DNA of 64,000 nt from Methanoculleus frigidifontis (GTDB taxonomy: Archaea; Halobacteriota; Methanomicrobia; Methanomicrobiales; Methanoculleaceae), in NCBI RefSeq assembly GCF_030464345.1, contig NZ_VCYH01000001.1, positions 124,001 to 188,000 on the forward strand. The letters run 5' to 3'. Below are positions 38,937 through 43,290 of this stretch, piece after piece (within the stretch, counting starts at the first letter, position 1; each line of letters opens with the position of its first letter). A program made the position numbers and the translations under genes. The notes beneath the pieces are model-generated. The model had not been told where the DNA came from. It did not search any database and saw only the letters and a list, made by a program, of their open reading frames with translations.

Positions 38937-40388
38937 ATGACAATAACCTTTGAAGTAATCCACAAAGATATCGGCGGCCGCGTAGGCAAGGTCAAAGTCG
39001 GATCGAAGACCGTCCGGACGCCGGCGCTCCTCCCGGTGGTGAACCCCCACCTGCCCCTGATCACCCCCCGCGAGATGCAGGAGATGGGCGTCGAGGCGCT
39101 GATCACCAACGCGTACATCTTCAACCGGAGCACTGAGTTTCGCGACAAAGCCCTTGCCGAAGGCCTCCATGCGGTGCTCGACTTCGACGGCGTGATCATG
39201 ACCGACTCCGGGTCGTTCCAGCTCTCGGTCTACGGCGAGGTCGAGGTCAGCAACGAAGAGACGCTCGCATTCCAGCAGGCCATCGGGAGCGAGATTATCG
39301 TTCCGCTCGACATCCCGACGCCGCCGGGCACGGACCGGGAGACGGCACGGCAGGAGCTCGCCGTCACCCTGGAGCGGATGCGGGAAGGGCAGGCGCTCTT
39401 CCCGGACGCCAACCTCGCCGGCCCGGTGCAGGGGGGCATCTACACCGACCTCCGTCGGGAGGCCGCTGCAGCGGTGCAGGACCTCGGGTTCACCTTCTGC
39501 CCGATCGGCGCGGTCGTTCCCCTGATGGAGTCGTATCGCTACAAAGAGCTCGTGCAGGTCGTCCTTGCTGCAAAGAGCGGCCTCTCTCCCGGAACGTGCG
39601 TCCACCTCTTCGGCGCCGGGCACCCGGCGATGCTCGCACTCGCCGTCGCGATGGGCTGCGACTTCTTCGACTCCGCGGCCTACGCCCTCTTTGCCCGCGA
39701 GGGACGCTACATCACGACGCACGGCACCCTGAAGGTGGACGAACTGGCGGAGCTCCCCTGCGCCTGCCGGGTCTGCCGCAGCCATACTGCCGAAGAACTG
39801 AAGAGATCCCCGGAGCGCGAGCGGCTGCTCGCCCTTCACAATCTCCACGTCACCCTCGCCGAGATCGCCCGGATCCGGCAGGCGGTGCAGGACGGCACTC
39901 TCTGGGAGCTCGTCGACGAGCGATGCAGGAGCCACCCCCGGCTCCTCGCCGGTTACCGTGAACTCCTGCGGCACGCAGAAGAACTCGAACCCGCCGACCG
40001 GGTCTCCAAACGGCGGTTCTTCTACCGGGGCAGCGAGAGCTGCCGCCGCACCGAGGTGCTCCGCTATCACCAGACGATCCCGCGGATCAGTCTCGGCGGG
40101 CGGGTGCTCATCTCCTTCGACGGCAAGGAGGTGCCCGGGTTCGATACGGTGCTCGGGTTCAAACCTCCCTTCGGCCCCTACCCGACCGGGCTCGCCGAGA
40201 CCTTCCCGGTCGGGCAGAGTGAGATCCCGGACTGGGACGAGGCTATGGTCCGGTCGGGGTGTGCCGGGATACGAAGCCTGATGGCAGGCCACCCGGAGAG
40301 CTGGTTCGCGGTCCGGTGCGGCCCGGCATGGGCGCCGGTCGTTGCCGAGGAAGTGCCGGGAGCGGAGGTGCAGCGTGAGCAGGTATGA
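38937..40388 (+). CDS. tgtA: Archaeosine tRNA-ribosyltransferase (TgtA)
   Basis: This 483-residue enzyme swaps guanine-15 of archaeal tRNAs for preQ0, the precursor of archaeosine. The TGT barrel shows the active-site [16 protein letters not shown] segment and [13 protein letters not shown]. The zinc-binding cluster follows as CACRVC with a downstream His in LLALHNLHV. The C-terminal third is the archaeal-specific region. The next gene, arcS, starts inside its last five codons. The neighbouring order tgtA-arcS-ArcS-like points to a dedicated archaeosine cluster. Confidence 0.92.
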
Positions 40389-42009
40389 GGGCCGGAAGCG
40401 CGACGGCCTTGCGCGGATTGGCATCTTCGAGCACGAGGGCGTGACCCTCACCCTCCCGGCGGCGGTTGATGCGGACGGCCTCTTCCCGAACCTGCAGCGC
40501 CGGGCGCTTTCGAACGTGCCCCTCGACGCCGGCCCGGCGTTCGCTGCCCGCTACCACGAGCCCGGCAGCGATCAGCCGGCCAGCGTTCATCCTGCCGCCC
40601 CGGCTGCGGCGGCGTCGGGCGACTGCGTGATGGCGGCAGGATGGCACACGGCGCTTGCAAACCCCAGGAAGTACGTGGAGTGGCTCGTCGCCCTGAAGGA
40701 GCGGGTCGTCCCCGACACCGCCTGGTACGCACCGGCGGCGGCGCTCCCCCGGGCGGCCGCCCTGCTGGTCTACACCGGGTTCGATCTCTTCGACTACCGT
40801 GCAGTTGACCTTGCGACCGCCCGGGGCGTCTTCTGCACGCCCGAAGGGGAGTTTCCGGCATCGATGATGGAGTCGGGCGTCTGCGGCTGTGCGGGGTGCC
40901 GGGACGGCGACCTCAAACGCCACAACCGACAGGCACTTGAGCGCGAGATCGCCCTCGTCGCCCGGTTCGTTGAGGCCGGGCAGCTCCGCGAGCTCGTCGA
41001 GTCCCGGTGCAGGCTGGATGCCGCGCAGGTCGGGATCCTCCGGTTCCTGGACCGGCAGTATGCCTTTCTGGAGCGCCGCCTCCCGATCGCCCGCGACGTC
41101 ACCCTGCGGGCGAACTCGGCGGAGTCGCAGAACCGGGCGGAGGTTCGGCGGTATGCCGAGCGCGTCATCGACCGGTTCGCCCCGACGCGGACCGACGTTC
41201 TGGTCCTCCTCCCCTGCTCGGCAAGGAAGCCCTACTCCCTCTCCCAGAGCCACCGGCGCTTTGCGGCCGCGGTTGCAAGCCGCGGCCACGAGGTGATCGT
41301 CACCTCGCCCCTCGGCGTCGTGCCGCGGGAACTCGAGCGGGTCTACCCCGCCGGCCACTACGACGTGCCGGTGACCGGCTACTGGGACCGGGAGGAGTGT
41401 GCATTCATCGCCGATATCCTCGTCCGCTATCTCGCAAAGAACGCTTACGGCCGCGTCATCGCGCACCTGGAGGGCGGGGCGCTCACGGTTGCGGAGATGG
41501 CGGCCGAAGCCCTCTCGCTCGACCTCGAGGTCACCTGCAGCGGCCACCCGACGAGCGGTGCGTCCCTCCGGGCGCTCGACGAGGCGCTCCGCGGTGAGAG
41601 GAAGATGCAGGCCGACATGGTGCGCGGCACCCTCGCCTGGCAGTTCGGCACCGATGTCGATATGAAAGGCCTGCGGGTGCGGAGCAAAGGCCCCCGGGTC
41701 TCGGTGCTCAGAGGCAAGCAGCAGGTCTTCAGCATCGACCCCGGTACCGGGCTCTTCCGGCCGACCTTCGAGGGATGGCAGCTGATTCCTGACCGCTACC
41801 GGGTGACGATCGACGACTTCGTGCCGCAGGGCGACGTCCTCGCCCCGGGCGTCGTCGCCGCCGACCCGGCGATCCGCGAGGGCGACGAGGTGCTGGTGCA
41901 GGGCGAGCGTGCACTGGCAACGGGCAAAGCGATGATGGGCGCCGACGAGATGGTTCAGGCAAAGCGCGGCGTCGCCGTCAAGGTGCGGAAAGTCCGAACA
42001 CTCGAGTGA
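40375..42009 (+). CDS. arcS: Archaeosine synthase (ArcS)
   Basis: This 544-residue protein resembles a degenerate TGT barrel at the N-terminus with retained cysteines (CGCAGC). It carries the ArcS-specific motif PC-x3-KPY-x2-S-x2-H as [14 protein letters not shown] around residue 280. A C-terminal PUA domain ([19 protein letters not shown]) for tRNA binding follows. ArcS converts preQ0-15 in tRNA towards archaeosine, in some archaea by adding lysine that a radical SAM partner then cleaves. The start is GTG 40375, overlapping tgtA by 14 bases. That partner is not in this window. Confidence 0.9.
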
Positions 42010-42187
42010 GGGTGGCGGCGACCTCTCCCTCCGCCGTTTTTCCGGGTGACGACCTGCACGAAACCCCGCTTCCGGCAGAACATTCCCGGAGCCTGTGCGA
42101 ATATCCGCGCCCCGCCTGGTATACGCCGGTTCCTGCTGACCTGCAGCTCTGGTATATACCTGTATCTCCGTTCCGCAAAGGAGCCGG

Positions 42188-42964
42188 GTGGCAAAATATG
42201 GGATTTCCGCCAAAAAGCGGAATGCTTTTTCATCATCCGCCGCCGATCTTCTCAGGCAGATGAGCAGATCAGGCATGGATCGAAGGTCGGCCGTGCGGGT
42301 CACCGGAGTGGTTACCGACCGGCACGGCAACGAGATCGAGATATTCGATCCGCCTTTCTACCGTGCAGAGTTCGAGGCCGCATACCGCTATATCATCGAC
42401 GAATACCGGGTAGAGGCGAGAGATGTCGGGATATTTATCCCCTGCGCCGTCAGGAAACCCTACAGCCAGAGCCCGAGCCACAAACTCTTCCGAAGGATCA
42501 TCGACGAGGTTCTCTCGCCGGAGGAGTATCATATCGTTATATTCGGGACGTGCGGGACGGTCCCTGCGGAGCTCGAACTGATGTACCCGTTCCGCCACTA
42601 CCACTACATGCTCGGCAGGGTCGCCGACGAGAGAGTCCGGCGGGACTTTCACCGGATCGAGGTCTACCGGCTCTGCGGCTACCTCGAAAAGACCCGGTTT
42701 ACCTATAAACAGCGGCTTGCCTACTGTATCGGCCCGTTCAGAAAGGCGATGGCCGAGGCCTCGGCGGCGACCGGCATACCCGTCGATCTGCTGCCGTCCG
42801 ACCCGATGATTGGGCGGATGTACGATATCGACTGTCCGTTCCCCGAAGGAAGCCTCTCGATGCAGGCGTATATCGATGAGTTCCGGGCAGGAATCGCGCG
42901 GCTTGCACGGACACGACCGAAGCCTGCAGTCCGGGTGGAAGAGGCGTCTCGGGTGACAGTGTAA
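42188..42964 (+). CDS. Stand-alone ArcS core domain protein (DUF5591)
   Basis: This 258-residue protein corresponds to the central domain of ArcS. It carries the complete ArcS motif PC-x3-KPY-x2-S-x2-H, here PCAVRKPYSQSPSH around residue 85, but has neither the TGT-like N-domain nor a PUA domain. It is the third gene of the archaeosine cluster. The GTG at 42188 is preceded by AAAGGAG and, further up, by a TATA-like GGTATATACC near 42150, so it has its own promoter. ATG 42260 is an alternative start. It may assist ArcS, act on free preQ0, or modify another substrate. Confidence 0.78.
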   Translation: MAKYGISAKKRNAFSSSAADLLRQMSRSGMDRRSAVRVTGVVTDRHGNEIEIFDPPFYRAEFEAAYRYIIDEYRVEARDVGIFIPCAVRKPYSQSPSHKLFRRIIDEVLSPEEYHIVIFGTCGTVPAELELMYPFRHYHYMLGRVADERVRRDFHRIEVYRLCGYLEKTRFTYKQRLAYCIGPFRKAMAEASAATGIPVDLLPSDPMIGRMYDIDCPFPEGSLSMQAYIDEFRAGIARLARTRPKPAVRVEEASRVTV

Positions 42965-42999: not shown

Positions 43000-43290
43000 T
43001 CATCTCCTCCACCGGGCGTGATGTATCACCTCGGCCGTCCGGAGGAGAACGAACGTGGCCAGCGCCGTAACGACCATCAGGCCGATGAGAATCCAGAAGG
43101 TGTAGGGCAGACCTTTCAAGGGGTGCTCGACGTTCGTCCCCCAGGCGCCGCCGATGATCGCCGGGATGGTGAGTGCAATGGTGATCTCGATCAGCACCTT
43201 CACGAGCTGGTTTAGGTTCAGGGAAACGATGGAGGGGACTCCCTCCGGCATCGTCCGGTGAACCTCGGTGGTGAAGAGGGCATGCGCGAC
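43000..43290 (-). pseudogene. C-terminal remnant of a CorA-type magnesium transporter
   Basis: The 83 codons up to 43251 encode the membrane end of a CorA protein: LNLNQLVKVLIEITIALTIP, then IIGGAWGTNVEHPL, then a second transmembrane helix. The invariant Gly-Met-Asn loop motif reads Gly-Thr-Asn. The cytoplasmic two-thirds is missing. Upstream, the frame continues without CorA similarity and other frames carry unrelated fragments, so this is a decayed 5' end. Positions 43291-43705 contain no other gene I can support, only degenerate coding-like sequence. Confidence 0.65.

Follow-up and report, generated by a model that had tools for sequence, protein, structure and literature searches.

The 64,000-nt window, meaning the whole stretch of Methanoculleus frigidifontis DNA that was analysed, encodes a small stand-alone protein that belongs to a conserved, uncharacterised subfamily of the core of archaeosine synthase (ArcS), a tRNA-modifying enzyme. 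Homology of this protein, called the paralogue here, to the ArcS core is established, as are its age relative to arcS, the selection acting on it, its distribution in the phylum and its cysteine signature; its chemistry is inferred. The best explanation, put at slightly under an even chance, is that the paralogue is an enzyme with an ArcS-type base pocket, a different partner and a possible three-cysteine centre. The argument draws on the following features, all on the forward strand.

38937 to 40388, forward strand: tgtA, archaeosine tRNA-guanine transglycosylase; no PUA domain is matched in the frame.
40342 to 42009, forward strand: full-length arcS with a partial TGT-like part, DUF5591 and PUA; a neighbour of the paralogue only in the source genome.
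42151 to 42160, forward strand: TATA-like site GGTATATACC, ~108-110 nt 5' of the ATG at 42260; present in the sister genome too.
42260 to 42964, forward strand: stand-alone DUF5591 (ArcS-core) paralogue, 234 aa, with its start moved from GTG 42188.
42440 to 42481, forward strand: signature PCAVRKPYSQSPSH, containing Cys62, Lys66, Tyr68, Ser71, Ser73 and His74 (234-aa numbering).
42542 to 42556, forward strand: FGTCG, a family-specific motif with invariant Cys98; ArcS has T-S-P-I/L-G.
42719 to 42742, forward strand: AYCIGPFR, a family-specific motif with invariant Cys156 and Arg161; ArcS has A-H-V/L.

The initial annotation gave the protein the extent 42188-42964. An open frame does span these positions on the forward strand and encodes the ArcS signature PC-x3-KPY-x2-S-x2-H in full as PCAVRKPYSQSPSH, a motif also carried, as had been claimed, by the ArcS alongside. 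The start had to be moved. It is most likely ATG 42260 and GTG 42188 is probably misplaced, because the genus has one other genome, the sister genome, whose copy of the gene contains a stop codon within the would-be N-terminal extension and starts at the ATG that aligns with 42260 in the window. A TATA-like run is present as proposed, and the sister genome has a TATA-like run, GGTATATATCC, at a similar distance (~108-110 nt) from its own ATG. Beyond the paralogue, an 83-aa frame on the reverse strand (43000-43251) has a match to CorA confined to the C-terminal end (224-291 of 292 positions) and is possibly a truncated or frameshifted CorA gene.

The DUF5591/ArcS-core match of the paralogue is far beyond chance. 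It scores 54.6 bits against Pfam DUF5591 (PF17884; cut-off 26, E 1.4e-14), with a direct match to the first half of the profile only (positions 8-76 of 150). Against the ArcS equivalog model NF040592 it reaches 55.9 bits, below the cut-off of 440 bits, and the match is confined to model positions 284-354 of 575. The paralogue is thus without the TGT-like and PUA parts of ArcS, as originally proposed; neither the TGT-like N-terminal part nor the C-terminal PUA domain was matched by the Pfam and ArcS models. Further evidence of homology comes from a profile-profile comparison of the paralogue family with 35 ArcS cores, which gave 99.2% probability and E 1.5e-19 over 141 columns at 30% identity. 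The signature PC-x3-KPY-x2-S-x2-H is invariant or nearly so among the 42 aligned members of the family. Judged from these alignments, the paralogue is genuinely homologous to the ArcS core and keeps the catalytic motif. None of the ArcS invariants T321, S322, P323, D341, W348 and H375 is kept, and by this measure it falls outside ArcS itself.

How old is the paralogue relative to arcS? It follows arcS immediately on the same strand, as a recent or decaying duplicate of that gene would. However, its identity to the ArcS alongside is only ~35% (80 residues compared), as against 82% to its orthologue in the sister genome. The phylogenetic comparison with ArcS cores that the initial annotation had called for placed the small proteins and ArcS each on one side of a branch, in separate clades with long stems of ~3 changes per column, although the tree was built by a quick method and its long branches make this depth approximate. 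Decay in relatives, which had been named as grounds for rejecting a function, was looked for and not found. Pairwise dN/dS was 0.09-0.24 for pairs with comparable starts, which indicates that the gene is maintained under strong purifying selection; values of 0.29-0.46 came from two pairs that include doubtful N-termini. Tree, identity and dN/dS together rule out a recent tandem duplicate or decaying copy, and the probability left to such an origin is negligible.

The paralogue represents an ancient family, separate from ArcS, that class II-type methanogens have inherited vertically. An order-wide search of 150 Methanomicrobiales genomes, 139 of them outside family f3 and 11 within it, found orthologues in 131 of the 139, with ~45-80% identity over the core, and none in the 11. 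Family f3 lacks the paralogue yet keeps ArcS, so the paralogue is dispensable there. A phylum-wide profile search recovered it in every sampled member of families f1, f2, f4, f6, f7, f8, f14, f26, f30 and f31 and in all sampled members but one of f5. The same search did not find it in the ArcS-bearing families f9, f10, f13, f17, f21, f22 and f23, among others. The f1 relatives that carry it are Methanoculleus and other Methanomicrobiales, and f8 is taken to be Methanosarcinaceae.

The paralogue had been described as lying beside tgtA and arcS. This is true of the source genome, where both genes lie upstream on the same strand, but it does not extend beyond it. In the sister genome, the paralogue and arcS are on different contigs, and among the 53 loci examined arcS lies within 4 kb of the paralogue at the source locus only (0 of the other 52). 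The sister contigs and the 53-locus comparison rule out a conserved operon of the paralogue with tgtA-arcS, and the linkage looks like a local rearrangement or accident. In genomes from three families (G035, G053, G070, G038 and G050), the distance between the two genes is 44-49 kb, a spacing that suggests an old regional arrangement, though not one of neighbours.

Other neighbours vary by lineage. The genes uvrB-uvrC-uvrA lie near the paralogue in some Methanoculleus loci and, on its opposite side, in seven further loci. In families f7, f14, f30 and f31, ogt is found beside the paralogue, in some cases with an overlapping or close gene for TATA-binding protein (TBP). In two f31 genomes (L152:3028-4271 and L155:8016-9364), the start of the paralogue overlaps the end of the TBP gene by 4 bases, which suggests a shared transcript. 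A UPF0020 (tRNA G10-type) methylase is adjacent in six loci. In nine f8 loci the adjacent gene, oriented divergently, encodes a single-domain TrmB-type regulator with cysteines, and rubrerythrin adjoins the paralogue in Methanoculleus loci. Further, unrelated neighbours in other lineages include DnaJ/DnaK, FeoB, S8e and rubisco. The co-occurrence of ogt is uninformative, as a match to its domain (PF01035) turned up in each of the 147 genomes searched, whether or not they have the paralogue. Because the neighbourhood is not conserved and the ogt domain is in every genome, no pathway can be derived from gene context.

Nevertheless, some of these neighbours bear on the possibility that the paralogue acts on DNA or nucleotides instead of tRNA, either in a 7-deazaguanine DNA modification like that of phages with stand-alone ArcS proteins or in DNA repair. 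The uvrB-uvrC-uvrA neighbours, seen in seven genera, and the ogt neighbours in four families are in line with such a role. So is the best viral structure match of the paralogue, the DUF5591 protein of Vibrio phage nt-1 (R9TEI9/VPFG_00169; 226 residues, TM 0.62). The DNA of this phage contains preQ0 and a little archaeosine (dG+) (PMC6884629). A DNA or nucleotide role is nevertheless unlikely. A search with the TgtA model revealed no DpdA-like second, DNA-inserting transglycosylase in the source genome, PF01035 occurs irrespective of the paralogue, and other lineages have unrelated neighbours.

Some neighbours also speak for a non-catalytic role, with the paralogue serving as a binder or redox sensor, for instance a regulator that works through its three cysteines. 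The TrmB-type regulators of the f8 loci, for which MreA (PMC4158304) is a candidate identity, and the rubrerythrin of the Methanoculleus loci point in this direction, and single-domain TrmB-type regulators can be thiol switches (PMC9426492). Neither neighbour is conserved beyond its group, however, and the catalytic-type residues that the paralogue has in common with ArcS hardly ever change, which would not be expected of a pure binder. A non-catalytic role is accordingly rated very unlikely.

Does the paralogue instead assist in making archaeosine? It could be an accessory or redundant component that binds ArcS or its partner RaSEA, or it could carry out the same lysine transfer on certain tRNAs. 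ArcS of Thermococcus kodakarensis transfers lysine onto the preQ0 nucleoside and nucleotide and is active only in complex with RaSEA (PMC11298593). RaSEA (TIGR01210) is present in the source genome, the core motif is kept in the paralogue and tgtA-arcS adjoins it there, all of which would suit an accessory role. Against it, the adjacency is unique to the source genome, the residues invariant in ArcS are replaced, and many families of the phylum have ArcS and RaSEA without the paralogue. Moreover, lysine transferase activity is reported for the ArcS of Methanosarcina acetivorans too (PMC11298593), so that an organism of the paralogue-bearing group already has an enzyme dedicated to archaeosine. 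An accessory role is therefore improbable. The more specific suggestion of a complex with ArcS has no support: the linkage is not conserved, M. acetivorans ArcS is reported to transfer lysine itself, and f8, taken to be Methanosarcinaceae, carries the paralogue.

Several observations on the archaeosine pathway stand apart from these readings. The source genome encodes, outside the window, a second and more divergent RaSEA-type radical SAM protein matching TIGR01210 (G000:C14:29292-30227, 404 aa). This second protein is sporadic and common to some relatives of genus g2; it was rejected as a partner of the paralogue, since most paralogue-bearing genomes have one RaSEA. In one f3 genome (G003, 98% complete), ArcS is matched but TIGR01210 only very weakly, and RaSEA may be missing there. 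A separate 196-aa frame (G000:C2:176005-176484) matches the C-terminal part of the ArcS model. Together with the window TgtA, which has no PUA, it would fit the kind of split ArcTGT described from M. acetivorans. Within the library searched, DUF5591 is mentioned in no paper, and none deals with an archaeosine synthase paralogue in Methanosarcina. The "repurposed enzyme" of the M. acetivorans ribosome in the literature is PurH, not the paralogue.

The residues that the two families share, and those in which they differ, carry the preferred reading of an enzyme with an ArcS-type base pocket and a different partner. Fifteen positions around the signature show little or no variation in either family (P61, C62, K66, P67, Y68, S71, S73, H74, G99, P102, E104, L105, Y109, P110 and Y114). 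Residues specific to the paralogue are F95-G96-T97-C98, R152, Y155-C156 and F160-R161. T321-S322-P323 of ArcS has become F95-G96-T97, H375 has become Y155, and D341 and W348 are replaced. This pattern fits a chemistry related to that of ArcS with a different second substrate. The earlier proposal of the same chemistry on a different substrate survives to that extent: homology of the core speaks for it, and the residues fit a related chemistry in which the second substrate would differ.

Both Cys98 and Cys156 are present in all 80 distinct paralogue sequences, and their counterparts in ArcS are I/L and V/L. In a confident AlphaFold model of the paralogue (pLDDT 87.6), Cys62, Cys98 and Cys156 are located at or just after the ends of strands 54-61, 90-95 and 149-155. 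The ends of parallel strands usually lie on one shared face, which makes a common site for the three cysteines plausible. Cys62, Cys98 and Cys156 may form a common metal, [4Fe-4S] or redox-thiol centre.

How might such an enzyme work? The paralogue would bind the ArcS-type substrate, the 7-deazaguanine nitrile preQ0, as a nucleoside or in RNA. The free base, suggested earlier as a substrate, is unlikely by analogy, as T. kodakarensis ArcS is inactive on free preQ0 base (PMC11298593), an observation on ArcS and not on the paralogue. Cys62 is the candidate nucleophile. With its second-substrate site presumably rebuilt, the paralogue would join preQ0 to something other than lysine or alter it in a different way. 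The likeliest source of substrate would be preQ0 placed in tRNA by TgtA, because the TgtA model matches nothing but TgtA and ArcS in the source genome; no preQ0-synthesis genes were recognised among the annotated neighbours of the paralogue. Against the enzyme reading stand the direct match to half of the DUF5591 profile only, the lineage-dependent neighbours that point to no pathway, and the absence of the paralogue from f3. A narrower version, in which a metal- or [4Fe-4S]-dependent three-cysteine enzyme built on the ArcS core makes an undescribed 7-deazaguanine-derived nucleoside in class II methanogens, is doubtful. Should the paralogue prove to be another 7-deazaguanine enzyme, these archaea would contain a modified nucleoside that has escaped notice. 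Nearly all members of a large and ecologically central group of methane producers have the family, for which no assigned function was found.

Comparison with known systems begins with viruses. The nt-1 DUF5591 gene lies between genes for a 6-pyruvoyl-tetrahydropterin-synthase-like protein and GTP cyclohydrolase, close to queC. A DUF5591 protein of Vibrio phage GR7B (GR7B_00119; L197:5545-6552), annotated as hypothetical, is encoded directly before queC-type genes, and a scan with this protein found no relatives. The Sulfolobus viruses STSV1, STSV2 and STSV4 have one DUF5591 protein each; that of STSV1 (ORF19; L195:3923-4486) is annotated as hypothetical and is encoded downstream of thyX. The nt-1 and GR7B loci indicate that 7-deazaguanine DNA systems can include an ArcS core that has no tRNA-binding PUA domain, and in these general terms the initial suggestion of a different nucleic-acid substrate holds up. 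The preQ0 genes around the phage proteins and the dG+ in nt-1 DNA also count in favour of the preferred enzyme reading. The viral stand-alone proteins resemble the paralogue in being ArcS cores without a PUA domain. They differ in that nt-1 and STSV1 have neither extra cysteine and GR7B has only the Y-C one. Among its annotated neighbours, the methanogen paralogue has no recognised preQ0 genes or DpdA. No viral member of the three-cysteine family was found in viral contigs, and the three-cysteine type has so far been seen only in these archaea.

Among proteins in the PDB, the only significant match by sequence and fold is AF0587 of Archaeoglobus (2q07; E 1.8e-6, TM 0.48). AF0587 is a protein of 306 aa, however, and is matched over part of its length only. 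DUF6884 gave a weak structure match only. The closest comparison is with ArcS itself (NF040592; T. kodakarensis, PMC11298593), with which the paralogue shares a homologous DUF5591 core and the conserved positions that include PC-x3-KPY-x2-S-x2-H. It differs from ArcS in being without the TGT-like and PUA parts, in the replacement of T-S-P, D341, W348 and H375, and in its two extra invariant cysteines. If the paralogue is such an enzyme, comparing the two families supplies a ready list of residues that separate lysine transfer from its own activity.
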